Below are positions 2,978 to 26,733 of a DNA stretch of 35,247 nucleotides, piece after piece; the first letter of the stretch is position 1, and each line of letters opens with the position of its first letter. The position numbers were made by a program, and so were the translations under genes. The stretch is from NCBI GenBank assembly GCA_016874175.1, contig VGUP01000011.1, forward strand, positions 1-35,247. Direction: 5' to 3'. The notes under the pieces were generated by a model. That model saw only the letters and a list, made by a program, of their open reading frames with translations. It did no database searches and had not been told where the DNA came from. The DNA is from Gammaproteobacteria bacterium. GTDB lineage: Bacteria; Pseudomonadota; Gammaproteobacteria; Steroidobacterales; Steroidobacteraceae.

Positions 2978-3907
2978 CTATTTCCCGGCAAGATGCCCTA
3001 GGACCCGTCGCGCGATCAGCTCGCTCACGCGGACGTTGGATTCTGCGGTGACACCCGCAATATGCGGGGTCAGCAGCAGGTTGGGGGTTTCTGCGAAGTG
3101 CGCTCCGCGTACGGCATCGAGGGGTTCGGTATCGAACACGTCGAGGGCGGCACCGCCGAGATGTCCGCTGCGCAACGACTCGACGACTGCATCTTCATCG
3201 AGTACGCCACCGCGGGCCGCGTTGATGATGATGCTGCCGCGACGCATCATCGCCAGTTGCTCGCGCCTGATCATGTTTTTGGTGGAGGGTAGCAGCGGCA
3301 CATGCAAGCTCACGACGTCAGTCACTTGCAGCAATTCTTTGAGAGAGCAGGGTTTCGCAAGTTGCCAAGCCGCATGATCCGCTGGCAGAAGAGGATCGAA
3401 GGCCACGATCTGCATGCCGAGAGCCTGGGCACGCGTTGCGGTTTCGCGGGCGATATTACCGAGTCCGATGAGTCCGAGGGTCTTGCCCGAGATCTCGCGC
3501 CCGATCGTGGTCATGCGCGGCCACTTTCCGGCGGTGACTTCGAGCGTCGCCGTCCATGCGCGGCGCAACAACACGAGCGCCGCAGTGATCACGTATTCGG
3601 CGACTGATAAATCATTGGCGCCGGTTGCGGGGTGTACGGCAATGCCGCTCGCCTTGCAGGCCTCGACATCGATGTTGTCGAGCCCGACGCCGAGTCGACC
3701 GACGACTTCGAGCTTGCCTGCAGCCGCGAGCAGAGCGCCGCGAACCTGGGTGCGATTGCGCACGATCAAGGCGCGCGCATCGCCTAGCTGTGCAAGCAGG
3801 TCATTGGGACGATCGACGAGTTTGGGATCGTAAAGCACGTCACGACCCGCCAGTATTTCGCGGATGGCGGCTTCGTCCATGAATTCGGTAATGACGATCT
3901 CGGGCAT
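2978..3907 (-). CDS. slcC: D-isomer-specific 2-hydroxyacid dehydrogenase, probable (S)-sulfolactate dehydrogenase
   Basis: The 309-residue protein has a full NAD-dependent 2-hydroxyacid dehydrogenase fold. The Rossmann motif GLGNIA lies at 148-153. The catalytic triad is Arg232 (INAARGG), Glu261 (DTEPL) and His282 (LTPHIAG). It is the last gene of a minus-strand set suyA-suyB-comC-slcC, with only 5 bases after the upstream gene. In the known pathway of Chromohalobacter, SlcC oxidises (S)-sulfolactate to sulfopyruvate, and ComC reduces this to (R)-sulfolactate, the form cleaved by SuyAB. The family is seen directly; the sulfolactate specificity rests on the neighbours. It could act on another 2-hydroxyacid. 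Confidence 0.75.
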   Translation of the reverse strand: MPEIVITEFMDEAAIREILAGRDVLYDPKLVDRPNDLLAQLGDARALIVRNRTQVRGALLAAAGKLEVVGRLGVGLDNIDVEACKASGIAVHPATGANDLSVAEYVITAALVLLRRAWTATLEVTAGKWPRMTTIGREISGKTLGLIGLGNIARETATRAQALGMQIVAFDPLLPADHAAWQLAKPCSLKELLQVTDVVSLHVPLLPSTKNMIRREQLAMMRRGSIIINAARGGVLDEDAVVESLRSGHLGGAALDVFDTEPLDAVRGAHFAETPNLLLTPHIAGVTAESNVRVSELIARRVLGHLAGK

Positions 3908-3912
3908 CTTGT

Positions 3913-4935
3913 TTAGTTCCGGAGGTAGTTGCAGAGCGCGGTGATTTCGGTGTGCAGCGCGGCCGGAATACGTACGCCCTGCTCGCGAGCGGCAGAGCGC
4001 GCCGCAAGACGTCTGATGCCGGGTAGACGAACCTCCGGTTCGGCGGCCATGGCGTCGAGCAGCGCCGACATGCGCCCAGCGAAGCCTTGGCCCGATACCG
4101 GGCCTGGATCGATGGCAATGAAAAGATGCCCCATATTCGGCGGTGTCCCCTCGGCATCAAAGAAAGACGACGCCTCCCAGCCAAACGCCCCAGTGGTGAG
4201 TGCGGCTCCCAAGATTTCGACCATCAAGGCGAGGGCGCCACCTTTGGGGCCGCCGATCGGCGACAAAGTTCCGGCGAGCGCTGCGCTCGGGTCCGTGGTC
4301 GGCTGACCGGTGGCATCGACGGCCCAGCCTTCGGGAATAGCCATGCCGGCTTTTTGCGCAGCGACGATTTTGCCGCGCGCCGCGACTGAGAGCGCCAGAT
4401 CGATGACCAGCGGATCGCGCGCACCGGGCAGCGGCGCTGCGAAAGCGAGTGGATTGGTGCCGAGCATGGCGCGTCGTCCACCATGAAACGCCATCGCTTT
4501 CGGCGTGTTGCCAAAGACGAGGGCGATCAGGCCTTGCAGCGCGAGTTTTTCCGCGTGGGCACCCACCTGACCAAAATGATGCGAGTGGTGGATTGCTGCG
4601 AGCGCGATGCCCTGCGATTTGGCAAGCGGCGCCAAGCTCGACAGCGCGAGGTCGATGGCCGGATAGGCAAAGCCGAGTCCGGCATCCACCCGCAGCACGC
4701 CCGGCGCAGGCTGCATCAGTTTGGGTACGGCCTCGCCATGCACCTTGCCCGAGCGTGCCTGCAAGGCATAGGCAGGCACGCGGCTTAAGCCGTGCGCCGC
4801 TTGACCGTCAGCCTCGGCAGCAATCAGAGCGCTCGCTGTCGCAAGCGCCGCAGCTGCCGAGGCGCGATTGGCACGCAGTGCCGCACTCGCAAGCGACTCG
4901 GCTTTCGCCAGAGTCAGGCAGATGGTTCCTTCCAC
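3913..4935 (-). CDS. comC: Malate/L-lactate dehydrogenase family oxidoreductase, probable (R)-sulfolactate dehydrogenase
   Basis: The 340-residue protein belongs to the Ldh_2 family (malate/lactate/ureidoglycolate dehydrogenases), which is unrelated to classical lactate dehydrogenases. Diagnostic segments are DGQAAHGLSRVPAYA near residue 45, the catalytic-histidine region AIHHSHHFGQVGAHAEKLA, GTNPLAFAAP, and GPKGGALALMVEILGAALT. In sulfolactate degraders this family supplies ComC, an NADP-dependent (R)-3-sulfolactate dehydrogenase that interconverts sulfopyruvate and (R)-sulfolactate. It lies 9 bases behind suyB and 5 bases before slcC, which is the expected partnership for converting both sulfolactate enantiomers to the SuyAB substrate. 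Specificity is inferred from context. Confidence 0.78.
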   Translation of the reverse strand: MEGTICLTLAKAESLASAALRANRASAAAALATASALIAAEADGQAAHGLSRVPAYALQARSGKVHGEAVPKLMQPAPGVLRVDAGLGFAYPAIDLALSSLAPLAKSQGIALAAIHHSHHFGQVGAHAEKLALQGLIALVFGNTPKAMAFHGGRRAMLGTNPLAFAAPLPGARDPLVIDLALSVAARGKIVAAQKAGMAIPEGWAVDATGQPTTDPSAALAGTLSPIGGPKGGALALMVEILGAALTTGAFGWEASSFFDAEGTPPNMGHLFIAIDPGPVSGQGFAGRMSALLDAMAAEPEVRLPGIRRLAARSAAREQGVRIPAALHTEITALCNYLRN

Positions 4936-4944
4936 GCGCGTGAC

Positions 4945-6120
4945 TCAGGCGCTGCGATAGAGCTTGGTCATCACGAACTCGACGTGACCGAGCGCCTCCG
5001 CTGCGGTGAGCCGACCGTTGGCCGTCTGTGCGATGCAGTCGATCAGCCAATCGCCGGCTTGATCGATGGTCATCTCGCGGCGCACTACGCCCGACACATC
5101 GACATCGATGTGCTCGGGCATCAGACGCACGGTACGCGGATTTCCGGTGACTTTGATGACCGGCATGATTGGATTACCGATCACGTTGCCCTGACCGGTC
5201 GGAAAGATGTGGATCACGTAGCCCGCCGCCGCCTGCAGCGTGCAGCACTCGGCCGCTGCAGAAGAGGTGTCCATGAAATAAAGACCAGGTCCGCGCGCGG
5301 GCGCTTCGGCGGGTTCGAGCACGTCAATGAATTTGACCTTCTTGCCGATCTTTTCGAGGTTGCCTAGAGCCTTTTCTTCGATGGTGGTGAGACCGCCGGC
5401 GATATTGCCCTTGGTGGGTTGGCTCTCGGAGAGGTCGGAGGTTTTGTGTGCCTCGATGACTTCATCCTGATAGGCCTGCCAAGTCTTCATGAACTTGTCG
5501 TGAATCTCCGGCGACACCGCGCGCGCCGCCGCGAGGTGCTCGGCGCCGGTGAGTTCGGAAGTTTCGCCGAAGCAGCCATAGAGGCCTGCAGGCACCAACT
5601 TGTCGTACATGTTGCCGACGGTGGGGCATGAGGCGAGGCCAGTGGTGGTATCGCTCTCGCCGCATTTGGCAGCCACCCACAACTCGGCGATGTCGCACTC
5701 GACACGCACTTGGGCTGAAGTCATATGCACGAATTCTTTGGCCTTGCGCGATGCGGCGGCAACCGTTGCGATGTCGCCATTGCCTTCGATCCAGAAGCCG
5801 GCGACGGGCTTGCCGGTCTTGGCAATGCCGTCGACGATGCGCTGCGTCCAGCCGGGCTCGATGCCGATCACGATGCAGGCGGCAACGTTCGGGTTCGCAC
5901 CCGTACCGATCATGGTGCGGAAATGCAGGTCGAGGTCCGCACCAAACTGCAAACGTCCGTAGGCATGGGGCAGGGCGATGGTGCCCTTGATGTTGTTGGC
6001 GACGGCTTCGCAGGCCGCGTTCGAGATGTCATCGACCGGCAGGATGGCGACGTAGTTGCGCACACCAACGCGGCCGTTCTCTCGGCGATAGCCCCAGATT
6101 TTGCGATCATTTTGAGTCAT
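4945..6120 (-). CDS. suyB: (2R)-sulfolactate sulfo-lyase, beta (large) subunit
   Basis: The 391-residue protein is of the UxaA/altronate-hydrolase C-terminal family and begins with [20 protein letters not shown], the characteristic opening of SuyB. Further blocks include [51 protein letters not shown] and [20 protein letters not shown]. SuyB with SuyA eliminates sulfite from (R)-sulfolactate, giving pyruvate. Length matches SuyB, and the separate small SAF-domain gene immediately upstream matches SuyA. Altronate or galactarate dehydratases share the fold, but their usual companions (UxaB, UxaC, GarL) are absent, while both sulfolactate dehydrogenases follow directly. The protein is cytoplasmic with no signal peptide. 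Confidence 0.87.
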
Positions 6121-6129
6121 CGTCGGTTC

Positions 6130-6417
6130 CTACCAGCGCTTGGTCTTGAGATTGTGGACATGCACGTGTTCGCCGCGCGCAACGCGCGCGACGATCTTGC
6201 CGATGTCCTGTCCGTATTTGGTGACGGTGTCGCCGACCTTGAGATCGGCGAGGGCCACTTTGTGACCGATTGGTACGTCGTGACGCACCGTCAGTCGGAA
6301 ATCGGAATTATCTTCGGTAACGACGCACAGCATGTCGGTGCCGGCCTTGAGATTCTCGACCACGACGACGCCGACATTGTCCTTGCGATCGTGCACGAGC
6401 AATTGGGGAACGCTCAC
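6130..6417 (-). CDS. suyA: (2R)-sulfolactate sulfo-lyase, alpha (small) subunit
   Basis: This 95-residue SAF-domain protein ends in GEHVHVHNLKTKRW, the typical end of the UxaA N-terminal/SuyA module. It is the small partner of SuyB in the desulfonating lyase. The start is GTG at 6417, with a strong AAGGAG ribosome binding site about 9 bases upstream on the minus strand. It is the first gene of the minus-strand operon, 9 bases before suyB. It is transcribed divergently from the GntR regulator across a 60-base gap that carries a palindromic motif. Confidence 0.87.
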   Translation of the reverse strand: MSVPQLLVHDRKDNVGVVVVENLKAGTDMLCVVTEDNSDFRLTVRHDVPIGHKVALADLKVGDTVTKYGQDIGKIVARVARGEHVHVHNLKTKRW

Positions 6418-6449
6418 TCCTCGGACTCCTTAGGGGTTCGCTTGCGGAC

Positions 6450-6467
6450 TGCAAGTCTTATATAAGA
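6450..6467. promoter_or_regulatory. Putative GntR operator between suyA and the regulator gene
   Basis: A perfect 12-bp palindrome TCTTATATAAGA occupies 6456-6467 in the 60-base divergent gap. Read on the minus strand, the 15 bases TATATAAGACTTGCA (6464 down to 6450) match 13 of 15 with TATATAAGAGTTGTA at 12723-12737 in front of the TonB receptor gene. Its position next to a GntR gene, 10 bases before that gene's first ATG and 32 bases before suyA, fits an autoregulatory operator covering both promoters. The motif is seen in the sequence; its use by this regulator is inferred. Confidence 0.6.
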
Positions 6468-6477
6468 TACTAAACAC

Positions 6478-7260
6478 ATGACACCTATGGCTGCAAGCGG
6501 CGCGCTACCATCGGCTCTGGCCAGCAATTCTCCACCAAAAATGGATAGCGCCCCGCAATATCGCCCGCTTTACAGCCAAGTCTACGAGGCACTCATCAAG
6601 CGCATTGCCAACGGCGAATGGAAAGCCGGGCAGTCGCTGCCTAGCGAGCAGGCACTGGCCGCACAGCTCGGCGTAAGCCAAGGCACCGTGCGCAAAGCGC
6701 TCGATGCGCTCGCCCTCGACAAGGTCATCGATCGCCGTCAGGGCAAAGGCACCTTCGTTGCGGAACTCACGCAGGAGCGTTCGCTATTCCGTTTCTTCAG
6801 GCTGACGCGTGCCGATGATCAGCGCGCCGTGCCCACAAGTGGCGATGAGTCGATACGGCGCCGCAAAATTCGCGCCCCCGAGGCGCGCGCCTTGGCATTG
6901 CCCGATACCGCCGAGGTGTTCGAGATCGTGCGTACGCGGTTCGTCGACGAACAGCCGATCGCCGTCGAGCGCATCGTCTTGCCGGAAGCGCTTTACCCAC
7001 AACTCGATGCGCACTCACTGCTGCCCAATGCGCTCTATGCGCTCTATCAGCGCGAGTACGGCATCAATATTGTTTCGATCCACGAAAAACTGCGTGCTGA
7101 CGTCGCGCGTCGCGACGACGAACGGCGACTCGGTGTGTCGCAGGGTACGCCCTTGTTGCAGGTGGAGCGGGTGGCGTACTCCGTCGATGGCAAGCGTGTG
7201 GAGTGGCGTCTCAGCCGTTGCGACACGAGCACTCTCGTTTACGACATCACCCTGACATGA
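6478..7260 (+). CDS. GntR-family (HutC/UTRA type) transcriptional regulator of the sulfosugar genes
   Basis: The protein has up to 260 residues. The N-terminal winged helix-turn-helix includes PLYSQVYEALIKRIANGEW, SLPSEQALAAQLGVSQGTVR and DRRQGKGTFVA, classic GntR motifs. The C-terminal UTRA effector domain contains FEIVRTRFVDEQPIAVERI and LLQVERVAYSVDGKRVEWR. HutC-type regulators usually bind a pathway sugar or sugar phosphate. The first ATG (6478) lacks a ribosome binding site. A second in-frame ATG at 6541, just before APQYRPLYSQV, is a reasonable alternative start. The gene overlaps the kinase gene by ATGA at 7257-7260, so the regulator is co-transcribed with the catabolic genes. It likely controls both divergent operons through the palindrome upstream. 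The effector is unknown; sulfofructose or its phosphate would fit. Confidence 0.88.
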   Translation: MTPMAASGALPSALASNSPPKMDSAPQYRPLYSQVYEALIKRIANGEWKAGQSLPSEQALAAQLGVSQGTVRKALDALALDKVIDRRQGKGTFVAELTQERSLFRFFRLTRADDQRAVPTSGDESIRRRKIRAPEARALALPDTAEVFEIVRTRFVDEQPIAVERIVLPEALYPQLDAHSLLPNALYALYQREYGINIVSIHEKLRADVARRDDERRLGVSQGTPLLQVERVAYSVDGKRVEWRLSRCDTSTLVYDITLT

Positions 7261-8180
7261 AGCGAGTGCTGTGCGTCGGTCATGCCGTGCAGGACTTCAT
7301 CTTCCGCACGCCGCAGTTACCGCATGGCGCCGAGAAGCATCGCGCCATCGGCTACTCGGAGGCAGGAGGTGGTCCCGCCGCGACGGCTGCCGTTGCCGTC
7401 GTGCGTTTGGGTGGCGCGGCTAGTTTGGTGGCGCGCGTGGGTGATGATTCGGTGGCGAGCACCATCCGCGTCGAGCTTGAACGCTATGGCGTCGATTGCC
7501 GGCACTTGCGGCGATTCGCGGGACATCAATCTTCGGTCTCGGCAGTTTTTGTTGACGATGCGGGCGAGCGGCTCATCGTCAACCACACGGATCCTGCCTT
7601 GCCCGCCGATCCGGCGTGGCTTGATGAAGTATCGCTCGATGAGGTAGCAGCGGTGCTCACCGACACGCGCTGGCCTCTCGGGGCCGAACTGATGTTGCGG
7701 CGTGCGACGGCTGCAGGCCTGCCGGCGGTGCTCGATGCCGATGTGCCTGTGCCCAAACAGGGATCCTTGCTCGATGCCGCCACACACATCGCTTTTTCTT
7801 TGGCCGGTCTGCGTGATTTTTCGGCCTGCAGCGATGACGCTGCAGCGGTCAGTGAAGCCTTGCGCACGATCGCCGAGAGTCGAGCGCGTTGGTGCTGCGT
7901 CACGCAGGGCGGCGGCGGCGTGCTGATCGCCGATGGTCGCGAGCCCGGTCGTGCCCCCGTTATGCAGCATGTGCCGGCGTTCCGCGTAACGGCGGTAGAC
8001 ACATTGGGTGCGGGCGATGTGTGGCATGGCGCTTTTGCGCTCGCACTGGCCGAGGGTGAGCGTGAAGCAACGGCTGTGCGCGCGGCGTCTGCAGCCGCCG
8101 CAATCAAGGTCACGCGCGCGGGCGGCCAAGCAGGCGCGCCCACGCGCCACGAAAGAGATGCATTACTGGAGAGATCATGA
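7257..8180 (+). CDS. yihV: PfkB-family kinase, probable 6-deoxy-6-sulfofructose kinase (YihV type)
   Basis: The 307-residue ribokinase-family protein has the PfkB signature VDTLGAGDVWHGAF, with catalytic Asp254. It resembles E. coli YihV closely over the N-terminal half (YSEAGGGPAATAAVAVVRLG, RVGDDSVAS). From memory, the sulfonate pocket of the E. coli enzyme uses K27, N109 and R138; this protein has Lys27, Asn109 (RLIVNH) and Arg138 (TDTRW) at exactly those positions. The reaction would be ATP-dependent phosphorylation of 6-deoxy-6-sulfofructose to its 1-phosphate. The start ATG overlaps the regulator stop, and the stop overlaps the aldolase start by four bases. Specificity is supported by both residues and neighbours. 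Confidence 0.85.
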   Translation: MKRVLCVGHAVQDFIFRTPQLPHGAEKHRAIGYSEAGGGPAATAAVAVVRLGGAASLVARVGDDSVASTIRVELERYGVDCRHLRRFAGHQSSVSAVFVDDAGERLIVNHTDPALPADPAWLDEVSLDEVAAVLTDTRWPLGAELMLRRATAAGLPAVLDADVPVPKQGSLLDAATHIAFSLAGLRDFSACSDDAAAVSEALRTIAESRARWCCVTQGGGGVLIADGREPGRAPVMQHVPAFRVTAVDTLGAGDVWHGAFALALAEGEREATAVRAASAAAAIKVTRAGGQAGAPTRHERDALLERS

Positions 8181-9223
8181 AATTTTCGGCAGGAAAATTT
8201 TGGGGCATGCGCCGCATGGCCGATCCGTCCGGCCGCTTCAAGATGACGGCAGTCGATCAGCGGCCGCCCATCAAAAATCCGATCAAGGCCAAGCGTGGTA
8301 CCAGCGAAGCGCCTTGGGAGGATGTGGCGTCATTCAAAGAGATGCTGATCGAAGAGCTGCAGGGCGAGTCCTCGGCAATGCTGCTAGATCCGCACTATGC
8401 CTATCCGCGCGGCGTCACCAAATTGCAGGCATCGCGAGGTTTGATCGTCACGCTCGAAGATTCCCTTTTCCGCGAGACGCCCGCTGGGCGATTTTCATCG
8501 GCGATCGATGACTGGTCGGTAGAGAAGATCAAGCGTATTGGTGGTGATGCGGTGAAGGTGCTTACTTGGTATCGCCCCGATGCCGACCCCGCCGTGTGTC
8601 AGGCACAGCAAGATTTCACGCAGCGTATCGGCGAAGCCTGCGCACGCTACGACATCCCATTCGTCTTCGAACTTCTGGTTTATCCGCTCGCCGCCGATCA
8701 GGAGCAGACGCGCGATTACGTCGAGATGAAGAGTAAGCATCCGCAGTTGGTGTTGGACAGCGTACGCACGTTTGCCGAGCCGAAATTCGGTGTCGATCTC
8801 TTCAAGCTCGAGAGTCCGCTCGCCGCGGCCGATGTGCCCGGTGTGGGCGCGCCCGGTTGGGAAGAGGCGCAGCGCTGGTTCGACGCTTTGGGTGCAGCCG
8901 CAGGCAGGCCGTGGGTGATGTTGTCGGCGGGTGCCGGCATGGATGAGTTCCATCGTATTCTCACTCATGCCTATCGCGCAGGAGCTTCGGGGTATCTCGC
9001 TGGCAGAGCGATTTGGTCCAAGGCCTTCGCACATTTTCCCGATTGGGAGGCGATCCGCGGTGGTCTGCGCGGCGAGGCCTGCGATTACATGCGTGCACTC
9101 AACGCGCTGACTGATTCGTCAGCCTCATCATGGTCCGCGCACTCGTGCTACGGCCCGGCTGGCGCCAGGGTTGAACCGGCGGATGCAAGCTTCCGTCATG
9201 TTTATCAAGGATTCGGAGACTGA
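8177..9223 (+). CDS. LacD/YihT-like class I aldolase, probable 6-deoxy-6-sulfofructose-1-phosphate aldolase
   Basis: The 348-residue (alpha/beta)8 aldolase of the tagatose-1,6-bisphosphate aldolase (LacD) family includes FKMTAVDQRP near residue 21, SAMLLDPHYAYP near 66 and the Schiff-base motif GVDLFKLESPL with Lys210. LSAGAGMDEF and ASGYLAGRAIW match the phosphate-binding end also seen in YihT. It is longer than E. coli YihT (292 residues), mainly through N- and C-terminal additions. In this operon it should split sulfofructose-1-phosphate into dihydroxyacetone phosphate and sulfolactaldehyde. The gene overlaps the kinase by ATGA and ends two bases before the isomerase start. A role in ordinary tagatose metabolism is possible but less likely beside SuyAB. 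Confidence 0.83.
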   Translation: MKFSAGKFWGMRRMADPSGRFKMTAVDQRPPIKNPIKAKRGTSEAPWEDVASFKEMLIEELQGESSAMLLDPHYAYPRGVTKLQASRGLIVTLEDSLFRETPAGRFSSAIDDWSVEKIKRIGGDAVKVLTWYRPDADPAVCQAQQDFTQRIGEACARYDIPFVFELLVYPLAADQEQTRDYVEMKSKHPQLVLDSVRTFAEPKFGVDLFKLESPLAAADVPGVGAPGWEEAQRWFDALGAAAGRPWVMLSAGAGMDEFHRILTHAYRAGASGYLAGRAIWSKAFAHFPDWEAIRGGLRGEACDYMRALNALTDSSASSWSAHSCYGPAGARVEPADASFRHVYQGFGD

Positions 9224-9225
9224 AT

Positions 9226-10653
9226 ATGTTGACCTACGGCGTTGCGGCGCTGGCGCGCCCTACTTTTGATGTTCCGTTTGCAGAAGACATGAAAAATCGT
9301 GCATTCGCCGCGCTCGAGGCTGCGGGTATTCGTACCGTGGGCCCACGTACGCTGCTTTTTGATCGCGATGCGGCCGAACGCGCGATAGCCGAGATCAACG
9401 CCGCAGGGCCCATCGATCTGCTGCTGATTTTGCAGGTAACGTTCACCGATGCGACCATGACGGTGAAGCTCGCGCGTGAGGCGCGTACACCGCTCGCGAT
9501 CTGGGCGGTGCCCGAGCCGCGTATCGGTGGGCGTTTGCGCCTCAACGCCTACTGCGGGCTCAACCTCGCAGCACACGCCCTCGGCCGAGCGGGGGTAGCG
9601 CACGGTTCGCTCTATGCCGATCCGTCTGCGCCGCAGCTTGCGGATTCTCTGCGCGCCTTGGCGCGATCCTATTCGTTGCCTGCATCGTCGCTGCAGGAAT
9701 CAGCATCAGCCTTGGCAGATTTCGATATCGATCGCCGCCGCAGTGCGGAGCAGGCTGCGGAGCGCGTGCTCGGTGGTCTCGCCGATTCGCGTATCACGGT
9801 GGTCGGCAAGCATCCAGATGGTTTTGATACCTGCGAATTCGATCCCGAGCTTCTCGCCCGACTAGCGCGTATCAAGGTGGACCATGTGACGCTGAACGAG
9901 CTCTTCGATCGTGCGCGGGCGACCGATGCGGGTCGAGTCGCGGCGGTCAAAGATCGCACCGAGGCGCAAGTTGCGGGTCTCGGCGAAGTCGATCCCGAAC
10001 AGCTCGATCGATCTTTCCGTGTGTTTTGTGCGCTCGAAGATGTTCATCGCGATACCGGCGCTCGCGGGCTGGCGGTGCGCTGCTGGCCAGAGATGTTCAC
10101 CGAATATGGTTGTGCAGCCTGTGGGCCGATGGCGATGATGAACCAAAAGAAAGTGCCGTCGGCTTGCGAGGCCGACGTGAATGGTTCGGTCACGCAACTC
10201 ATGTTGCAGGAACTTGCCGGCGAGCCCGCATGGATGGCGGACCTCGTCGACATCACGGCCGCCGACGATACGGCGGTGCTTTGGCATTGTGGACTCGCAC
10301 CGCTATCGATGTGTGATCCCGAGTTCAAACCTGAGGCCACCATCCACACCAATCGTCGGATGCCGCTGCTTCATCAGTTTCCGATCAAGCCGGGTCGTAT
10401 CACCCTTGCACGTCTGTCACGCTCGCGCAACGAGCTCAAGCTGGTGATCGCAGGCGCGGAAGTGGTACGCGCACCGATGGCGTTCACCGGTTGCTCGGGT
10501 ACGGTGCGCTTCGATCGTTCGGCAGCCGAGGTGAGCGCGCGCATTCTCGATGAGGCTTTGGAGCATCATTTTGCGCTGGCCTATGGTGATTATCGCGATG
10601 CGCTGCGCGCGCTGGCCGCACGCTGGAACGTGCCGGTGCTCGAACTCGCATGA
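9226..10653 (+). CDS. L-fucose/L-arabinose isomerase-fold protein, probable sulfoquinovose isomerase
   Basis: The 475-residue protein has the two-part organisation of fucose/arabinose isomerases. An N-terminal alpha/beta region contains LLLILQVTFTDATM and IWAVPEPRIGGRL. The C-terminal metal-binding part contains CWPEMFTEYGCAACGPMAMM (Glu289) and ACEADVNGSVTQLM (Glu315, Asp317). His354 (LWHCGLAP) and His383 (LLHQFPIKPG) are possible further ligands. It sits between aldolase and GH31 in a fully overlapping operon. An aldose-ketose isomerase is exactly the step missing between SQ and sulfofructose. E. coli uses the unrelated YihS (AGE fold); fucose-isomerase-type SQ isomerases (SqvD) have been described in Firmicutes. 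Substrate is inferred, fold is seen. Confidence 0.75.
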   Translation: MLTYGVAALARPTFDVPFAEDMKNRAFAALEAAGIRTVGPRTLLFDRDAAERAIAEINAAGPIDLLLILQVTFTDATMTVKLAREARTPLAIWAVPEPRIGGRLRLNAYCGLNLAAHALGRAGVAHGSLYADPSAPQLADSLRALARSYSLPASSLQESASALADFDIDRRRSAEQAAERVLGGLADSRITVVGKHPDGFDTCEFDPELLARLARIKVDHVTLNELFDRARATDAGRVAAVKDRTEAQVAGLGEVDPEQLDRSFRVFCALEDVHRDTGARGLAVRCWPEMFTEYGCAACGPMAMMNQKKVPSACEADVNGSVTQLMLQELAGEPAWMADLVDITAADDTAVLWHCGLAPLSMCDPEFKPEATIHTNRRMPLLHQFPIKPGRITLARLSRSRNELKLVIAGAEVVRAPMAFTGCSGTVRFDRSAAEVSARILDEALEHHFALAYGDYRDALRALAARWNVPVLELA

Positions 10654-12680
10654 GCTCGGCACTCGATCCATACGTTCCCAATTGGGGGCGCATGGCCGCA
10701 GCGCAAGTCGCTGGCGAACTCGTTTTGCAAGACAACGTGCTGCACCTGCCGACCTCGCTCGGCAGTTTGCGACTGTCATTGCACGAGTTCGGTTTGCGCT
10801 TGCGCAGTGGCGGCGATGTTCGCGACTACGGAATTCTTTGTGGAGATCTTGAGCCGCTGCCGCTCACGCTGGACTTTCTCGGCAGCGGCGACCAATCCCA
10901 ATCGAGACTGCACGCGCGAACGGCGACGGGTGAAGAGCTGCTCGTCAGCATCGGCCATGCGCCGTTCAGTTTCGCGCTGTACCGTAATGGTCGTTGCGTG
11001 CAGGAGTCTCCGCGCGATGGGCACTTCGTGCGGCATTTTCGTTTGCCGCCGCTCGCGCGTCACGATGATCGCTGGCTGTTGACGCTGGAGCTCGGTCCGT
11101 CGACGCCGGTGTATGGTCTCGGCGAAAAATCGGGCCGCCTCGACAAGCGTGGCCAATTGCTGCGGTCCTACAATCGGGACGCACTCGGTCTCAATGCCGA
11201 GTCGAGCTACAAAAACATTCCCTACGCCTGGAGCCCAGATGGTTGGGGCGCTTTTGTCCACACCCCCGCGCCGGTGACGCATGGGGTGGGCTATGGTCCG
11301 TGGTCGCAGCGAGCCTATGTACTCGTCATCGAAGATCCCGAGCTCGACGTATTTCTTTTGACGGCTGCAGACGGTGCTGCACAACTCGCGCAATACACGA
11401 CACTTACCGGACGGGCGCCGGTACCTCCCGCATGGAGTCTGGGCGTCATTCTGTCGAAGGCCTACTACAAAGATTCTGCGGAGATTCTCGCGGTGGCTCG
11501 CGAAGTATGCGAGCGCGGCATGCCTTGCGAGGTCATCACCTTTGACGGCCGCGCCTGGCAGGACACTGACACGCGCTTTGCCTTCGAGTGGTGCCCCAAG
11601 CGCTATCCCGATCCGCGCCCCACCGTGGAGGCCCTGCGGGCGATGGGGTTGCGGATTTGCGTATGGGAGTACCCGCTGATCTCGGTGAAGAACCCCTTGT
11701 TCGCGGAGCTCGCGAGCAAGGGTTGGTTGCTGCGGGACGCACGCACCGGTGAGGCGTATCGCTATGCCTGGGATCCGGAACCCTTCGGCGCCGTGCTCAC
11801 CCAGTTGCCCGAGTCGGGCCTGCTCGATTTCACTCATCCCGAAGCCTATGCGTGGTGGCGCGATCAGCACCGTGCGCTCTTCGAGCTTGGCGTCGACATG
11901 ATCAAAGCCGACTTCGGTGAACAGATCGAAGAGCACATGTTGGCGAGCGACGGCTCGCGGGGCGATGCGCTGCACAATATCTATGCGCTGCTCTACAACC
12001 GCTGCGTCTACGAGGCTGCTCAAAGATTTGCACGTGATGGGGCATTTTTGTTCAGTCGGGCGGGTTGGTCGGGCTCGCAGCGCTATCCGTCGCAGTGGGG
12101 CGGCGATCCACAGGCCGACTGGGGCGGTTTGGCAGGCAATCTGCGCAGTGGGCTCTCTTGGGGGCTGACGGGCGCGCCGTTTTATGCGACTGATGTCGGC
12201 GGCTTCTACGGTGATCAGCGCGATCCAGTGCTTTATGTGCGCTGGCTGCAGGCGGCTATTTTTTCAGCGCATTTGCGGCTGCACGGCATTGGCCCGCGCG
12301 AACCTTGGAGTTACGGTCCCGAGGCTGAGCGGCTGGCGATGCAGGCCTTGGCGTTACGTGAGCGTCTTCGACCCTACCTGCAGGGCGTCGTCGAAGAATC
12401 GAGTCGCAACGGTCTGCCGGTGCAGCGCCCGATGGTACTGGCCTGCCCCGAGGATCGCTCAGCCTGGGCCTTCGAGGATCAGTTTTTCTTTGGCGAGCGG
12501 CTGCTGGTCGCCCCCTGCCTCGAGCCCTCGGGCCAAGTCACGGTCTATTTGCCGGCGGGCGAGTGGGTCTGGCTCGATAACGGCCAGCGAATCGAGGGTG
12601 GGCGCAGTCATACGCTCACCCTGCCGCTCGACCGGATCGCCGTGTTCACGCGTTCGGGCAACGGTATCCCGGGGTTCTGA
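10650..12680 (+). CDS. GH31 family alpha-glycosidase, probable sulfoquinovosidase
   Basis: The 676-residue protein has an N-terminal beta-sandwich (GPSTPVYGLGEKSGRLDKRG, residues about 150-170) and a GH31 (beta/alpha)8 barrel. The nucleophile is Asp421 in DMIKADFGEQ and the acid/base is Asp486 in SQWGGDPQADW. The C-terminal beta domains end in FTRSGNGIPGF. Overall order resembles the YicI alpha-xylosidase branch. However, the subsite loop at 299-310 reads DGRAWQDTDTRF, whereas YicI-type xylosidases have an FDCFWMKEF-like sequence there, so the -1 pocket differs and gains Arg301. No signal peptide, so it acts on imported glycosides in the cytoplasm. The start overlaps the isomerase stop (ATGA). 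In context it should release SQ from sulfoquinovosylglycerol; an alpha-xylosidase or alpha-glucosidase cannot be excluded. Confidence 0.78.
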   Translation: MSSALDPYVPNWGRMAAAQVAGELVLQDNVLHLPTSLGSLRLSLHEFGLRLRSGGDVRDYGILCGDLEPLPLTLDFLGSGDQSQSRLHARTATGEELLVSIGHAPFSFALYRNGRCVQESPRDGHFVRHFRLPPLARHDDRWLLTLELGPSTPVYGLGEKSGRLDKRGQLLRSYNRDALGLNAESSYKNIPYAWSPDGWGAFVHTPAPVTHGVGYGPWSQRAYVLVIEDPELDVFLLTAADGAAQLAQYTTLTGRAPVPPAWSLGVILSKAYYKDSAEILAVAREVCERGMPCEVITFDGRAWQDTDTRFAFEWCPKRYPDPRPTVEALRAMGLRICVWEYPLISVKNPLFAELASKGWLLRDARTGEAYRYAWDPEPFGAVLTQLPESGLLDFTHPEAYAWWRDQHRALFELGVDMIKADFGEQIEEHMLASDGSRGDALHNIYALLYNRCVYEAAQRFARDGAFLFSRAGWSGSQRYPSQWGGDPQADWGGLAGNLRSGLSWGLTGAPFYATDVGGFYGDQRDPVLYVRWLQAAIFSAHLRLHGIGPREPWSYGPEAERLAMQALALRERLRPYLQGVVEESSRNGLPVQRPMVLACPEDRSAWAFEDQFFFGERLLVAPCLEPSGQVTVYLPAGEWVWLDNGQRIEGGRSHTLTLPLDRIAVFTRSGNGIPGF

Positions 12681-12794: not shown

Positions 12795-15092
12795 ATGTCG
12801 ATGAGCAAGAAAATCGTCGCAAGTGCCGTGGCTGCCGCCTGTGTCGCCATGGTCCCGCAGGCCGTCGTCGCACAAGACTCGGGCGAGGGCCGCCTCGATG
12901 AAATCGTCGTGACCGCGCAGAAGCGCGAACAGCGATTGCAGGATGTGCCTATTGCCGTTTCCGTGGTCAGCGGCGCACTCGCCGAGGCCTCGGGCAGCTT
13001 CAATATCGAAGCGCTGAAGACGCTCGTGCCCTCGCTGAACATCCGCAAGACCAATACCTCGCTCAACCAATCCTTGTTCTTGCGCGGCGTGGGCACCATC
13101 AACTTCGCGATCGCCGCTCAGCCGAGCGTGGCTACGGTGCTTGATGGTGTGGTGTTGTCGTCAGCGGGTGAAGCCTTCGGCGATCTCTACGACATCGAGC
13201 GCATCGAAGTGTTGCGTGGCCCCCAGGGCACGCTGTTCGGCAAGAATGCTTCCGCCGGCGTGGTCAACATTGTGTCCAAGCGCCCCGGCGATACCACGGG
13301 CGGCTACATCGATGTCGGCTGGTACGAAGACAACGAGTTGCGCGTGAAGGGCGCGATCGACATGCCGATCTCTGACACGGTCCGTTCGCGCACCACCGTG
13401 ACCTACGGCAAATTCGACGGCTATATCAGCAATATCTCGACCACTGCCGCGGGTGGCGACCTGAACGGCTATGACCGCAAGGGTATCCGCACGGTGTGGG
13501 AAATCGGCAGTGAAGGAAATCTTTGGACCTTCAGTGGCGACTATCGCAAGTCGGACGACAACTGCTGCGTCGAGATCATCGGCAATGCGCCGACTGGCGC
13601 AAACGCCGCAGCCTACACCTCGCTCTATAGCGGTATCGTGCTGCAGGGTGACAAGACGCGGCAGGTCAAGCAGGACCTGCAGATGCGCTCGACCGAAGAG
13701 GCCTGGGGTCTCTCGTTGCAGGGAGATATCGATACCGCCTTGGGATCTTTGACCAGCATCACGGCGTATCGCACCTGGGATGCGACCGAATATCGCGAAG
13801 GCGACTGGATCGATCAGGCGGCGCCCTATGTCGGTAATGCCTTCGCGCAGCTGCATGACTTCGGGCCGCAGACCACCAAGACTTTCTCGCAGGAGCTCCG
13901 TCTTGCCTCGAGTGGCGATGGCGCATTCAATTATGTTGCGGGTGTTTATTACTCCAACACCGAGTCAGAGCGTTTCTTCCAGCGCAACATCTTCAACTGC
14001 ACTGCGAGCACGTTGGCGATCGACGCCACCGGACAGCGCCCGTGCCGCGCGGGCTCATCGACCTACGTCAGCACCTTCTCGAACGCGACCTTCGGTGCAG
14101 ACTTCAAAAATACTGCGGTCTTTGCCGACGGTACCTGGAACGTCACCGACAGTCTGCGTTTGATCGGCGGTGCGCGCTGGACGCAGGACAAGCTGAGCTA
14201 CTTCCACAACCGCGTACCCACACCGTTCGCGGGCCAGCCCGGCATTCGTACCGACCTCTCGGGCTTCAAGGGCAGCAACGACTCCGACAATGTGTCGGGT
14301 CGCGCGGGGCTGCAGTACGACCTCAATGACGACGTGATGGTCTATGCCTCTTATGCGCGTGGCTACAAGGGTCCGGCGTACAACGTGTTTTTCAACATGA
14401 CCGTGAACAACACGCCAGTCATCGAGGCCGAGACGGCGGATTCGTACGAGCTGGGTCTGAAGAGCACGCTGCTCGATGGTCGTATGCTCGTCAACGCCGC
14501 GGTATTCGACGCCAAGTACGACGACTTCCAAGCCAACAATTTCCTGTTTCTCAACGGCACGCTGATCACCACACTCACCAACGCGGGTAAGGTCTCATCG
14601 AAGGGCTTCGAGCTCGACGTTCAGGCGCGTCCCAACGACATGCTGACGTTTGGTGCAGGCGTTGCCTACACGGACGCAAAGGTCGACAACTTCTTCACGC
14701 CGCCCGGTCAGAACTCGACCGTTCGCGCGGGGACTTCGCTGCCGCTTGCGCCGGAGTGGAAGGCTTCGCTCAATGGCGATCTGAATATTCCGATGGGCTC
14801 GTACACGGTGGTGCCGAGCATGGTGATGTCGTACCAAGGTACGAGCTTCGCCGATCTCAACGAGCCGGCGGCACTGCGCATCCCTGGTTACACCACGGTC
14901 GATCTCACGATCGCTGTGCGTGACGAGAGCGATCGCTTCCGTATTGCGCTAGTCGGGCGCAATCTTGCAGACAAGTCGTTCACGGTTCTCAAGACCGGTG
15001 GTGGCCCCGGTGGTGCGCCGCGTCTGCAGATCCCGCGCGATGCCGAGCGCTACTTCGGAATTCAGGCGCGCTTCAATTTCGGAGCAAAGTAA
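12795..15092 (+). CDS. TonB-dependent outer-membrane receptor
   Basis: The 765-residue protein starts with a Sec signal peptide (SKKIVASAVAAACVAM, cleavage after about VVAQ). A TonB box/plug entry DEIVVTAQKREQRLQDVPIA and plug core VLRGPQGTLFGKNASAGVVN follow. The remainder is a beta-barrel ending in YFGIQARFNFGAK. Such receptors take up substrates too large or too rare for porins, using energy from TonB-ExbBD (not in the window). It stands between the SQ operon and TRAP transporter genes and carries the same operator-like motif upstream. A sulfolipid-derived glycoside such as sulfoquinovosylglycerol is the inferred cargo. A GGGACTGAAAG region precedes the start ATG. Family certain, substrate inferred. 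Confidence 0.9.
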   Translation: MSMSKKIVASAVAAACVAMVPQAVVAQDSGEGRLDEIVVTAQKREQRLQDVPIAVSVVSGALAEASGSFNIEALKTLVPSLNIRKTNTSLNQSLFLRGVGTINFAIAAQPSVATVLDGVVLSSAGEAFGDLYDIERIEVLRGPQGTLFGKNASAGVVNIVSKRPGDTTGGYIDVGWYEDNELRVKGAIDMPISDTVRSRTTVTYGKFDGYISNISTTAAGGDLNGYDRKGIRTVWEIGSEGNLWTFSGDYRKSDDNCCVEIIGNAPTGANAAAYTSLYSGIVLQGDKTRQVKQDLQMRSTEEAWGLSLQGDIDTALGSLTSITAYRTWDATEYREGDWIDQAAPYVGNAFAQLHDFGPQTTKTFSQELRLASSGDGAFNYVAGVYYSNTESERFFQRNIFNCTASTLAIDATGQRPCRAGSSTYVSTFSNATFGADFKNTAVFADGTWNVTDSLRLIGGARWTQDKLSYFHNRVPTPFAGQPGIRTDLSGFKGSNDSDNVSGRAGLQYDLNDDVMVYASYARGYKGPAYNVFFNMTVNNTPVIEAETADSYELGLKSTLLDGRMLVNAAVFDAKYDDFQANNFLFLNGTLITTLTNAGKVSSKGFELDVQARPNDMLTFGAGVAYTDAKVDNFFTPPGQNSTVRAGTSLPLAPEWKASLNGDLNIPMGSYTVVPSMVMSYQGTSFADLNEPAALRIPGYTTVDLTIAVRDESDRFRIALVGRNLADKSFTVLKTGGGPGGAPRLQIPRDAERYFGIQARFNFGAK

Positions 15093-15101
15093 ACTCGGCG
15101 C

Positions 15102-15665
15102 GTGATCGACGCCCTCTCCGCCGCGCTGCGCGGCTTGGCCAAAGTGAATGCCCCCATCGCAAGATGGGGGCTTTCCTTTTCTGCGATCCTGCTCGCTTTG
15201 ATGCTGACGGTCGCGCTCGCGCAAATTCTCTCGCGCGTGCTCTTCAACCATACGCTCGATTGGGCTGAAGAGGCGGTGCGCATGGCGCTGGTGTGGTCGG
15301 CGCTGCTCGCTGCACCGATCGGTTATCGCGCGGCGGGTCATGTGGCGATCACCGCCTTCATCGAGGGTCTTTCGATGCGTACGCTCTGCGTCACGGGCGT
15401 CATCGTCAATTCATTGGTTGCCTGGATCTGCAGCGTATTCCTGCTCGAGAGCTTCGATTTCGTTGCGCGGGGCAGCACGATCGTGTCGACCGGACTCGGT
15501 ATCCAAATGGCGTTCGTTTATTTGATTGTGCCGGTGGCGCTACTCGCTTTGCTGCTGGTGGCGAGCGAGGCGATCCTTCGCCTGCTGCGCGCGCTGTGCG
15601 CTGACGACCCGGAGCTGCTGTTGGTGGGCGTCGTCCCTGTTTTGCAGCGCGACGACCAAACCTGA
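15102..15665 (+). CDS. dctQ: TRAP transporter small membrane subunit (DctQ type)
   Basis: The 187-residue protein has four hydrophobic helices and the DctQ landmarks LSRVLFNHTLDWAEEAVRMA, LVWSALLAAPIGYRAAGHVA and a C-terminal charged tail. DctQ pairs with DctM to form the membrane part of a sodium-driven importer. The start is GTG at 15102, nine bases after the receptor stop. Starting further downstream would remove the first helix. The first 25 codons contain a terminator-like hairpin (15150-15171), which may reduce transcription into the TRAP genes relative to the receptor. The stop is 16 bases before the dctM start. Confidence 0.85.
   Translation: MIDALSAALRGLAKVNAPIARWGLSFSAILLALMLTVALAQILSRVLFNHTLDWAEEAVRMALVWSALLAAPIGYRAAGHVAITAFIEGLSMRTLCVTGVIVNSLVAWICSVFLLESFDFVARGSTIVSTGLGIQMAFVYLIVPVALLALLLVASEAILRLLRALCADDPELLLVGVVPVLQRDDQT
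15150..15182 (+). terminator. Terminator-like hairpin inside the start of dctQ (possible attenuator)
   Basis: GCCCCCATC (15150-15158), the tetraloop GCAA and GATGGGGGC (15163-15171) form a perfect 9-bp GC-rich stem. A T-rich run TTTCCTTTT follows. This is the full signature of an intrinsic terminator, 58 bases after the TonB receptor stop but within the dctQ coding frame. Partial termination here would give more receptor than TRAP mRNA; ribosomes translating dctQ would oppose folding. Confidence 0.6.
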
Positions 15666-15681
15666 GTCAGGAAAGCCCAGC

Positions 15682-16968
15682 ATGTCGATCGCATTTTTCT
15701 GGATTCTGGTTTTGCTGATGACTTTTGGTACACCGGTGGTCTTCGCTTTGCTGCTGGGGCCGGGTCTAAGCCTTTTGTTCGATGGCGAAATGCGCTACGT
15801 CCCCGCGCTGCTTGCCCGTTTCTATAACGGCATCGACAGCTTTCCGCTGCTCGCCGTGCCGTTTTTCATTCTGGCCGGCGAAATCATGAACGCCGGTGGC
15901 ATCACGACCTTGATCGTGCGCTTTGCGCAATCTTTGGTTGGCCACGTCCGCGGTGGGCTCGCGCAAGTGAATGTGCTGTCATCGATGATCTTTGCCGGGA
16001 TCTCGGGCTCTGCCGTCGCCGATGCCTCAGCGATCGGCAAGATGCTGATTCCCGCGATGGAGCGCGAAGGTTATCCGCGCCCATTTGCCTCGGCTGTGAC
16101 TGCGGCAGCTGCGGTGATTGGTCCGGTGATTCCGCCGTCGGGAATCATGGTGCTCTACGGCTTCGTGATGAACGTCTCGGTGGGCGCGCTGTTTGCAGCG
16201 GGGGTGGTGCCTGGGGTGATCATTGGTCTTGGGTTGATGGGTACGATCCGCTTGCTCGCCAAGCGCTATAACCTGCCGGCGGCGAAACCGCGTGCGACCT
16301 GGGGTGAGCGCGCGACGGCATTTCGTAGCGCATGGCTTGCGATGATGCTGCCGGTGATTTTGCTCGGCGGCATGCTGAGCGGCGTGTTCACGGCTACGGA
16401 GGCGGCCTGCATGGCGGTGGCCTATGCGCTCTTCGTCACCATCTTCGTGACCCGCAACGTACGCCGGCCCGAGCTCGTTGCCATCTTCAAAAATACTGCA
16501 CTGCAGTCCGGCGTGATCCTGTTGCTCGTGGGGGCGGCAGTCACCCTCGGTTGGTTGGTCTCGGTGTCGGGGCTCGCGAAGGGGATTGCCGATGCCATGC
16601 TGCTGCTCACCGATGATGTGTCGACCTTGCTCTTTCTGGTGAACGTGCTGCTGCTCATCGTCGGCATGTTTCTCGATGCCGGTCCGGCGATCCTGATTCT
16701 TGGGCCTGTGTTATCGCCGGTATTCATCGGGCTCGGTGTCGATCCGGTACATTTTGCGATCATCACCTGCGTGAATCTGACCATCGGGCTTGCCACGCCG
16801 CCGATGGGCTTGCTGCTTTTCGTCACCGCTTCGGTGGCCCGCGAAAAAGTTGAGAACATCGTGCGCGCACTGCTGCCGTTTTTGACGGTCGAGATTCTGG
16901 TGATTTTTGTCATCACGTATTTTCCGTCGCTGGTGCTCACCTTGCCGCGTGCCTTGGGTTTGATGTGA
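15682..16968 (+). CDS. dctM: TRAP transporter large membrane subunit (DctM type)
   Basis: The 428-residue protein from ATG 15682, preceded by AGGAAAG, has about a dozen membrane helices. DctM signatures include PLLAVPFFILAGEIMNAGGI, MIFAGISGSAVADASAIGK, VIGPVIPPSGIMVLYG, FTATEAACMAVAYAL and NLTIGLATPPMGLLLFV. It forms the transport channel with DctQ and receives substrate from the periplasmic DctP protein. An upstream in-frame extension to 15526 overlaps dctQ in another frame and looks non-coding. Imported compounds of TRAP systems are usually anionic (carboxylates, sialic acid, some sulfonates), which would fit a sulfosugar. Confidence 0.92.
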   Translation: MSIAFFWILVLLMTFGTPVVFALLLGPGLSLLFDGEMRYVPALLARFYNGIDSFPLLAVPFFILAGEIMNAGGITTLIVRFAQSLVGHVRGGLAQVNVLSSMIFAGISGSAVADASAIGKMLIPAMEREGYPRPFASAVTAAAAVIGPVIPPSGIMVLYGFVMNVSVGALFAAGVVPGVIIGLGLMGTIRLLAKRYNLPAAKPRATWGERATAFRSAWLAMMLPVILLGGMLSGVFTATEAACMAVAYALFVTIFVTRNVRRPELVAIFKNTALQSGVILLLVGAAVTLGWLVSVSGLAKGIADAMLLLTDDVSTLLFLVNVLLLIVGMFLDAGPAILILGPVLSPVFIGLGVDPVHFAIITCVNLTIGLATPPMGLLLFVTASVAREKVENIVRALLPFLTVEILVIFVITYFPSLVLTLPRALGLM

Positions 16969-22591: not shown

Positions 22592-22957
22592 GCGAGCGTT
22601 GCCGATCGCGGTCTGGACTCCCATCCGGGTCATGAGTTGTGCGCTCGGCTCTGTAATCCGGGTTACGGTACCGGCGGATTGCGTACCGTCGATTTTGGAA
22701 CCGCGAAGCGCGCGTTGCATTTCATGGAGCACCTGTAATACATCTAAGACTGCGACTACATGACCGTGAGTTTCGGCTTCAGCGATACGCTGCTAACCGC
22801 CAGCGCCTCGAGTATTTCGAGTGAACTCGATGAGTTATCGCTCGTAGCTGCCGGCGGTAGCCTGGGACTCGTTCGTTTGTCTGTGGGGTACACCGGGCAT
22901 ATCGATCACCGGCTCGTACAAGTCGAGCGCGGTTATGCCGTTGCTACGAGTGTCTGA
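22592..22957 (+). pseudogene. C-terminal fragment of a Cys/Met-metabolism PLP enzyme with internal stops
   Basis: One frame reads LDSHPGHELCARL, GTGGLRTVDFGTAKRALHF and MEHL, then TAA, YI, TAA, then DCDYMTVSFGFSDTLLTAS and GLVRLSVGYTGHIDHRLVQV before a final stop. This order matches the C-terminal third of cystathionine gamma-synthase/methionine gamma-lyase type enzymes, where GLVRLSVG is the closing signature. The two in-frame stops (22737-22751 region) and the missing N-terminal two thirds, including the PLP lysine, show it is dead. Its end overlaps the convergent galK stop. Confidence 0.6.
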
Positions 22958-24123: not shown

Positions 24124-24126
24124 CGA

Positions 24127-26672: not shown

Positions 26673-26733
26673 GACTTTCTCCCCGGAGCACGCTGCTCGG
26701 CGATGGTCAATAATACGGAGACTAGGAGGATCC

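Follow-up and report, generated by a model that had tools for sequence, protein, structure and literature searches.

A divergent Steroidobacteraceae locus that probably joins hybrid sulfoglycolysis to sulfolactate desulfonation under one putative GntR operator

The window analysed here is a stretch of 35,247 nucleotides, contig VGUP01000011.1 (C11) of assembly GCA_016874175.1, the 2.56 Mb and 96% complete genome of a freshwater-type gammaproteobacterium of the Steroidobacteraceae. It carries a probable catabolic locus for the sulfosugar sulfoquinovose (SQ), made of a minus-strand SlcC-ComC-SuyB-SuyA set and a plus-strand GntR-kinase-aldolase-isomerase-GH31 set (Table 1). The starts of suyA and gntR are exactly 60 bases apart. 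GntR and kinase, kinase and aldolase, and isomerase and GH31 overlap by 4 bases, 2 bases separate aldolase from isomerase, and the four minus-strand genes are spaced by 5, 9 and 9 bases, so that two tight divergent operons are apparent. All frames are open at these coordinates; the kinase start at 7257 was chosen to fit YihV, the mechanical open reading frame (ORF) starting at 7203. An earlier note, made from the DNA letters alone, had described these two halves facing each other across 60 bases with one GntR regulator, which the coordinates bear out. It ended the locus at 12680, too early: the genes it listed are present, but the TonB receptor and TRAP genes, up to 18016, accompany the locus in relatives. 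It also suggested looking for the same gene set and order elsewhere; the divergent arrangement was found again in other genomes and is thus not a product of chance. Named genomes were scanned, and the best 80 of 197 encoded relatives define the 80 relative loci used below (1.39 Mb, many of the stretches being short).

Table 1. Genes and sites of the locus and its transport genes (window coordinates; predicted functions).
Feature	Position	Strand	Support
SlcC-like (S)-sulfolactate dehydrogenase, D-2-hydroxyacid dehydrogenase family	2978..3907	-	PF02826, 180 bits
ComC-like (R)-sulfolactate dehydrogenase, Ldh_2 family	3913..4935	-	NF040650, 183.7 bits (cutoff 500)
SuyB, predicted (R)-sulfolactate sulfolyase large subunit	4945..6120	-	67-79% identity to plasmid SuyBs
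SuyA, predicted small SAF-domain subunit, 95 aa, GTG start	6130..6417	-	SAF, 23.8 bits (cutoff 21)
Putative operator TCTTATATAAGA, shared promoter	6456..6467	.	Unique in genome, conserved at homologous promoters
GntR/UTRA regulator, heading the upper operon	6478..7260	+	PF00392 and PF07702
YihV-like sulfofructose kinase, PfkB family	7257..8180	+	Solved YihV 7ag6 best match, 208.7 bits
Proposed sulfofructose-1-phosphate aldolase, class I (LacD/DeoC fold)	8177..9223	+	PRK12858, 340.8 bits (cutoff 184)
Predicted sulfoquinovose-sulfofructose isomerase, SftI/SqvD type (FucI/AraI fold)	9226..10653	+	NF048012 SftI, 257 bits (cutoff 700)
GH31 glycosidase, DGRAW-motif clade, proposed second-type GH31 sulfoquinovosidase	10650..12680	+	PF01055
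TonB-dependent receptor, probable outer-membrane import	12795..15092	+	PF00593/PF07715; adjoins locus in relatives
TRAP transporter DctQ	15102..15665	+	PF04290; conserved
TRAP transporter DctM	15670..16968	+	PF06808, 385 bits; conserved
TRAP solute-binding protein DctP	16979..18016	+	NF037995, 156 bits (cutoff 50); conserved

Judged by its sequences, the upper half is a hybrid sulfo-Embden-Meyerhof-Parnas (sulfo-EMP) pathway, combining a YihV-like kinase, an SftI/SqvD-type isomerase and a LacD-like class I aldolase, and not the classical sulfo-EMP. Hybrid sulfoglycolysis is mentioned in PMC9594981 and PMC12890257 (here and below, statements on papers cited by PMC number refer to excerpts of them). 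A predicted sulfofructose kinase of the YihV family is present: among solved structures YihV ranks first, followed by a sugar kinase (2rbc, 157 bits) and ribokinase (94.6 bits), and the identity to E. coli YihV is 42%. The residues Lys27, Asn109 and Arg138, which the earlier note had placed at the YihV sulfonate pocket and which we take to be sulfonate-binding positions, all align with the fetched YihV sequence; over 70 locus sequences K27 and R138 are invariant (70/70 each) and N109 is kept in 60. No paper linking sulfofructose, YihV and Arg138 was found in the open-licence literature. The aldolase belongs to the LacD/PRK12858 group and is 27% identical to YihT; its nearest solved relative is 8tnf, named only as a DUF2090 protein, YihT reaching 68 bits. 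Its K210 aligns with YihT K193, presumably the catalytic lysine, and is conserved in at least 95% of 66 aldolases. For the isomerase the only NCBIfam match is the sulfoquinovose isomerase SftI; E289, D317, H447 and H448, which we assume to form a FucI-type metal site, are kept in the window and in all 37 relatives. A structure model was made because a PDB search gave no meaningful sequence match (best E 0.64), and this model (mean predicted local distance difference test, pLDDT, 93.4) retrieved L-arabinose (AraI) and L-fucose (FucI) isomerases with Foldseek, at template-modelling scores of about 0.5-0.57. The isomerase is not of YihS type, and across the 80 loci YihS was never the best reference of an ORF above 50 bits. 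Sulfo-EMP2 was considered and rejected, the kinase being of the PfkB and the aldolase of the DeoC/LacD family, and not a PfkA-type SqiK with a class II SqiA.

The lower half looks like sulfolactate desulfonation. SuyA and SuyB make up a two-subunit protein (SAF and GD_AH) that groups with the SuyAB of sulfolactate and 2,3-dihydroxypropane-1-sulfonate degraders. A plasmid search with SuyB returned 314 records, 13 of them at 60-80% identity; among the best 40 of these records the next value is 39.4%, and the altronate-type relatives stand at 39% or less. The top records include Sinorhizobium mexicanum (79%), Methylobacterium, Paracoccus (75% for P. versutus) and Cupriavidus pinatubonensis (67%), and SuyA is 76%, 72% and 49% identical to the SuyA adjoining SuyB on three plasmids. 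The neighbours of these SuyBs are annotated hpsN and hpsO in C. pinatubonensis, a GntR gene and a putative sulfate exporter in P. versutus, with a sulfite oxidase about 8 kb on, and GntR-, SlcC- and ComC-like genes in S. mexicanum. The SlcC-like protein of the window, whose best NCBIfam model is PGDH (276 bits, below the cutoff of 454), is 62% identical to the product of a gene adjoining suyAB in S. mexicanum; the ComC-like protein, best matched by the L-sulfolactate dehydrogenase model NF040650, is 49% identical to a gene product beside suyAB/slcC there. Both families adjoin suyAB, as compared through the S. mexicanum genes, and the two window genes would encode sulfolactate dehydrogenases, in line with the SuyAB and dehydrogenase pair that the earlier note had named. 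SlcC and ComC have been proposed to racemise sulfolactate for SuyAB (PMC9594981). Elsewhere the genome encodes a sulfite dehydrogenase resembling SorA (426 bits against a cutoff of 600) and a YeiH-family exporter. Seven relative loci (L082, L087, L103, L105, L108, L109 and L120), all from Rhodobacterales families, hold a gene clustering with the sulfopyruvate decarboxylase alpha subunit (one member was scanned), which suggests a second lower route in these loci.

The two halves share a promoter region, and within the 60-base gap lies the palindrome TCTTATATAAGA. It is the only such site in the 2.56 Mb genome at 0-1 mismatch, and the reversed pattern gave none. Its core, TCTTNTANAAGA, occurs at 56 sites in the 80 loci, against 0-2 for each of seven control patterns. 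The genes starting within 400 bases downstream are those for GntR (28), SuyA (23), kinase (17), ABC ATPase (4) and TonB receptor (3), others occurring once each. One site (L050:19771) lies inside a receptor gene and several others were counted inside genes owing to ORF starts called too far upstream, so we give no exact number of promoter sites. Measured from annotated starts, 31 of 34 GntR genes have a core site within 400 bases. A second core site precedes the kinase in many alphaproteobacterial loci, and the TonB receptor has its own operator in some relatives. Exact operator sites were found in six of ten relatives searched. One of them, G157, has four: two at GntR-suy promoters, one at the TonB receptor/TRAP junction and one at a 68% identical aldolase absent from the kinase/isomerase contig, an example of how the motif offers a simple way to find scattered pathway genes. 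The operator thus turns up at promoters of suy, gntR and kinase genes in both Alpha- and Gammaproteobacteria and, because the palindrome is in addition unique in the genome, one GntR probably controls both halves; the link to one GntR in the earlier note is strengthened accordingly. The same core TCTTNTANAAGA stands before suyA in S. mexicanum and TCTTGTATAAGA before suyA in P. versutus, both in stretches without sulfoglycolysis genes, and the window's GntR is 42% and 40% identical, respectively, to the GntR beside suyAB there. We infer that a suy-type GntR repressor took over the sulfosugar genes, its mode of action (repression) and its inducer being part of that proposal.

A search of 296 genomes of the order with the isomerase gave 15 with a match, 11 of them full-length at 60% identity or more and four weak, and in the window's genus the isomerase is present in three of nine genomes examined, so that the locus is accessory. 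Among named records the closest isomerase (97%) is from a gammaproteobacterial metagenome-assembled genome, and near kin include such genomes labelled Steroidobacteraceae and Nevskiaceae. Exilibacterium tricleocarpae R142 (L056) and Aliihoeflea sp. (L094, L107) are strains that carry loci of this kind. SuyB was found in seven of ten isomerase regions fetched, two others (L035 and L038) being cut by contig ends before the SuyB position. Among the sulfoglycolysis genes, the 80 relative loci hold the kinase in 69 cases, the aldolase in 68, a GH188-like gene in 47, GH31 in 26 and a CsqR-like gene in 23, and YihR-like genes recur; the lower genes are represented by SlcC (41), SuyA (29), SuyB (28) and ComC (24), and other genes by an aldehyde dehydrogenase (17), GlpD (11) and GlpK (8). 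Where at least 9 kb is available on each side (46 loci), 21 have SuyB, 19 all four lower genes, and 13 neither SuyB nor SlcC. In L032 (17009-19899) and similar close relatives, glpD and glpK directly follow slcC, an adjacency that fits glycerol release from sulfoquinovosyl glycerol.

The earlier note had counted the GH31 glycosidase as part of upper sulfoglycolysis, and family membership alone does not show a sulfoquinovosidase: the protein scores nearest to the alpha-xylosidase YicI (315 bits) and lower to YihQ (156 bits), and the YihQ residues R301, W304 and Y508, which we take to be its sulfonate site, align to D307, F310 and F519 (the loop alignment being uncertain). The catalytic Asp pair is presumably D421 and D486, which correspond in the alignment to D405/D472 of YihQ and D416/D482 of YicI. 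By sequence the enzyme is outside the known sulfoquinovosidase subfamily, in a separate clade marked by a DGRAW motif that, together with R309, is common to 24 of 25 aligned relatives (the exception, L075, is 37% identical); its members would otherwise be annotated as alpha-xylosidases. A model of the protein (pLDDT 84.3, residues 176-187 poor) again had YicI as its best match, with the sulfoquinovosidases 5oht and 8r56 from rank 37 on, a ranking that does not settle the substrate. No signal peptide was seen by eye, so the enzyme is probably cytoplasmic.

Where 1.5 kb or more is available beyond the isomerase (73 loci), 70 loci contain a GH31 or GH188-like gene at some position, and only one of the 80 has both (L091, with a 24% GH188-like match). 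The gene directly after the isomerase is GH188-like in at least 23 of these 73 loci and a GH31 in 19 or more, an undercount caused by a simple ORF caller that extends starts into neighbouring genes, so that presence and absence were counted instead. The isomerase tree has 80 rows, 79 loci plus the window, the fragment L088 being excluded for its length; four changes each account for the GH31 and GH188 labels on it, as against about 21 in shuffles. Solved SqgA was matched at 428 bits by the one alphaproteobacterial GH188-like protein tested, for which the next family reached 68 bits, and one from genome G006 scored 212 bits to 8zn9 and 190-197 to SqgA entries. R166, L170 and K172 are the SqgA sulfonate contacts in PMC10755693; a motif spanning them, HR-x-PF-[LY]-x-K, is found in 40 of 47 GH188-like proteins, and the loose form R-x3-L-x-K in 46. 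A GH31 search of the 296 genomes (E up to 1e-30) gave five full-length proteins at 56% or more, the window's included, a 48% fragment and, for the rest, 38% or less. The DGRAW motif occurs in five of the 30 GH31 loci fetched, which are these same five; four of them are in genomes with the isomerase locus and the fifth is in G040. The near-exclusion of GH31 and GH188-like genes, the restriction of the clade largely to isomerase-locus genomes and the association with GntR and operator in G040 together suggest that the GH31 is a sulfoquinovosidase.

In G040, a genome of another family of the order (C13, L163, 1219-11503), the GH31 follows a 43% identical GntR with the same operator, opposite genes for a TauD-family dioxygenase, an aldo/keto reductase and a YeiH-type exporter. 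In G028 (C151, L164) the genes stand, by eye, in the same sequence as far as a GH31 truncated by the contig end, and the L163/L164 cluster also holds an SSS symporter and a TonB receptor beside the GntR and DGRAW GH31. The isomerase was matched in neither genome. The cluster resembles the sulfo-dioxygenase (sulfo-ASDO) pathway, of which SqoD and SquF are described in PMC12890257.

We consider it likely that the window locus serves the catabolism of SQ and its glycosides through to C-S cleavage in one cell. The TonB receptor and TRAP transporter would import a glycoside such as sulfoquinovosyl glycerol from plant or algal sulfolipid, and the GH31 would free SQ from it. SQ would be converted by the SftI-type isomerase to sulfofructose, phosphorylated by the YihV-like kinase and cleaved by the class I aldolase to dihydroxyacetone phosphate (DHAP) and (S)-sulfolactaldehyde. 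The latter would be oxidised, by an aldehyde dehydrogenase whose gene lies elsewhere, to (S)-sulfolactate, which SlcC and ComC would turn via sulfopyruvate into (R)-sulfolactate, and SuyAB would cleave the latter to pyruvate and sulfite, the GntR repressing both operons from one palindromic operator. All these activities and substrates are predicted from sequence, as are repression and inducer. More broadly, and with more reserve, we favour a GntR regulon with operator TCTTATATAAGA that, across Alpha- and Gammaproteobacteria, would govern the import of sulfosugars, hybrid sulfo-EMP and the desulfonation of sulfolactate, as well as, apparently, a dioxygenase-type desulfonation in one family, together with a second, independent GH31 sulfoquinovosidase lineage, nearest to alpha-xylosidases, in which a DGRAW...R loop would replace the YihQ sulfonate site.

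Besides the GH31 residues given above, several observations weigh against this interpretation. (i), a sulfolactaldehyde dehydrogenase is not on the window's contig: the PF00171 profile matches 14 proteins in the genome, none of them there. (ii), the best candidate for this step, a GabD-like protein, is closer to E. coli GabD (730 bits) than to 8c54 (615 bits), a characterised sulfolactaldehyde dehydrogenase, and a 0-1 mismatch search of the genome found no operator at its gene. (iii), the isomerase, SlcC and ComC score below equivalog cutoffs. (iv), SuyB is lacking in 25 of the 46 wide loci, within the stretch covered, and L041 has SlcC, kinase and isomerase without SuyAB. (v), three of the 34 GntR loci (L053-L055) are without the core motif, and five of the seven GH188-like proteins without the tight motif lie in the Woeseiaceae branch of the isomerase tree. 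(vi), the same GntR and operator also accompany suyAB without sulfoglycolysis, and dioxygenase-type genes, which leaves the inducer unclear. According to the earlier note, one cell could turn SQ into DHAP, pyruvate and sulfite. The two gene sets do stand in one locus and SQ is the likely sugar, but the chain is not fully supported, because the gene for oxidation of sulfolactaldehyde to sulfolactate is not in the locus.

The GabD-like protein (G000:C22; L124:8981-10459) is only a candidate for this step. It is 52-58% identical to one aldehyde dehydrogenase in each of the 17 relative loci that have one, whereas the next gene of the genome reaches 40% at most; L113 has another, different gene that matches the GabD-like one at 35%. 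By eye it has W-N-F, an Arg nine residues after the W and an Arg six before the catalytic Cys, a spacing that matches W162, R171, R289 and C295 of PMC10599462, where the two Arg positions are proposed; succinate semialdehyde dehydrogenases can share these.

The gap at sulfolactaldehyde bears on an alternative that we regard as unlikely, namely that the two modules have no more in common than a promoter, with a C3 sulfonate excreted at the end of the upper one and the lower one serving imported sulfolactate or a cysteate-derived sulfonate. S. mexicanum, with suyAB-slcC-comC-gntR and the same operator in a fetched stretch without sulfoglycolysis, points the same way. However, one putative operator serves both operons here, no YihU-type sulfolactaldehyde reductase family was found among the locus ORFs scanned, and L053-L056 and L080 carry suyAB and an aldehyde dehydrogenase together; the genome also has the GabD-like enzyme with Arg at both PMC10599462 positions, by eye and with the proviso that ordinary GabD can share them.

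Alternatively, the sugar might be sulfofucose (6-deoxy-6-sulfogalactose), which a FucI-type isomerase would convert to sulfotagatose before cleavage of its phosphate by a tagatose-bisphosphate-type aldolase. The aldolase does belong with the tagatose-1,6-bisphosphate aldolases, the fold of the isomerase is that of FucI/AraI, and a tandem of sulfofucose degradation and SuyAB operates in Paracoccus wurundjeri (PMC12421959). We nevertheless find this quite improbable: GH188-like sulfoquinovosidases occur in 47 of the 80 loci (tests of GH188 on sulfofucosides do not appear in the excerpt of PMC10755693), CsqR-like and YihR-like genes recur, the single NCBIfam match of the isomerase is a sulfoquinovose isomerase and, according to PMC12421959, growth of P. 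wurundjeri on sulfofucose did not raise its kinase and aldolase of EMP type. Since the Pfam families are generic, a locus for an ordinary sugar or sugar acid, with SuyAB as an altronate/galactarate-type dehydratase and a ribokinase-type kinase, can also be imagined; the identity gap around SuyB, the kinase ranking nearest to YihV with its residues kept, and the GH188-like genes in relatives make it highly implausible.

With SQ degradation as the preferred reading, the locus may be placed among known systems. It shares with the E. coli yih and Arthrobacter sulfo-EMP a PfkB-family sulfofructose kinase, a class I aldolase and the proposed intermediates. It differs in having an SftI/SqvD (FucI) isomerase instead of YihS, a LacD-like aldolase distant from YihT, SuyAB in addition, and no sulfolactaldehyde reductase or dehydrogenase in the locus; Arthrobacter, with an oxidative sulfo-EMP, produces sulfolactate (PMC8873060). 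The extended sulfo-transaldolase (sulfo-TAL) pathway of Thermotogae and Chloroflexi (PMC9594981) likewise has SuyAB in a sulfoglycolysis cluster and an SqvD-type isomerase route, with complete carbon use predicted in 2022, but it runs through a transaldolase where the window has kinase and aldolase. Almost the same gene list is found in the actinobacterial Y160 GH188 cluster (PMC11465081, 2024), with fucose isomerase, sulfofructose kinase, sulfofructose phosphate aldolase, a PGDH-like gene and sulfolactate sulfolyase subunits; it has GH188, an ABC transporter and a sulfolactaldehyde dehydrogenase, whereas the window has GH31, TonB/TRAP and ComC and lacks that dehydrogenase. The sulfofucose tandem of P. 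wurundjeri (PMC12421959, 2025) has the same SlcC-ComC-SuyAB lower half, the same gap at the sulfolactaldehyde dehydrogenase, and an upper half of Entner-Doudoroff type unlike that of the window; the kinase and aldolase families of the Paracoccus cluster that were not raised on sulfofucose may be the same module as the window's. The racemisation-desulfonation module of Chromohalobacter and Paracoccus, as told in PMC9594981, has the same SlcC, ComC and SuyAB, which the window links to sulfoglycolysis under one putative operator. PMC13372026 screened SQ degraders for SuyAB, SlcC and ComC.

The joining of sulfoglycolysis with desulfonation is thus already in print (predicted in 2022, actinobacterial clusters in 2024, the sulfofucose tandem in 2025). 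The earlier note had described the halves as split between organisms in well-known cases; printed exceptions are PMC9594981, PMC11465081 and PMC12421959, the authors of the last calling coexistence in one bacterium unusual and also citing a Klebsiella strain. Neither the operator with its regulon nor the GH31 clade turned up in searches of the open-licence literature; subscription papers may differ. The yearly amount of SQ has been put at 10 billion tons (PMC10755693). In the usual picture, pathways that cleave C-C bonds end in C3 sulfonates, which are excreted and left to other organisms. If our reading is true, single bacteria release the sulfur themselves, and metagenomic evidence on sulfolipid turnover would have to be read differently.

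The surroundings of the locus in the window show some further features. A low-molecular-weight phosphotyrosine phosphatase gene (18013-18444) follows the TRAP genes and has a homologue in 10 of the 80 relative loci. Beside the locus, a galactoside cluster (22933-30837) holds GalK, GalT, an SSS symporter, a 796-residue GH36-like ORF and a 655-residue GH42-like ORF, the last two named by eye without a family search. We considered this cluster as part of a thylakoid-lipid island and left it out on a weak test, its absence from the 1.5 kb past the TRAP and phosphatase genes in G187. A DUF1838 protein (20989-21912; 65 bits, cutoff 25) is encoded after a GABA-permease-like gene. At 1833-2942 lies a gene for a CpeT/CpcT-family protein (PF06206, 42 bits, cutoff 21), a family that we take to be known from phycobiliprotein lyases, here in a non-cyanobacterial host.

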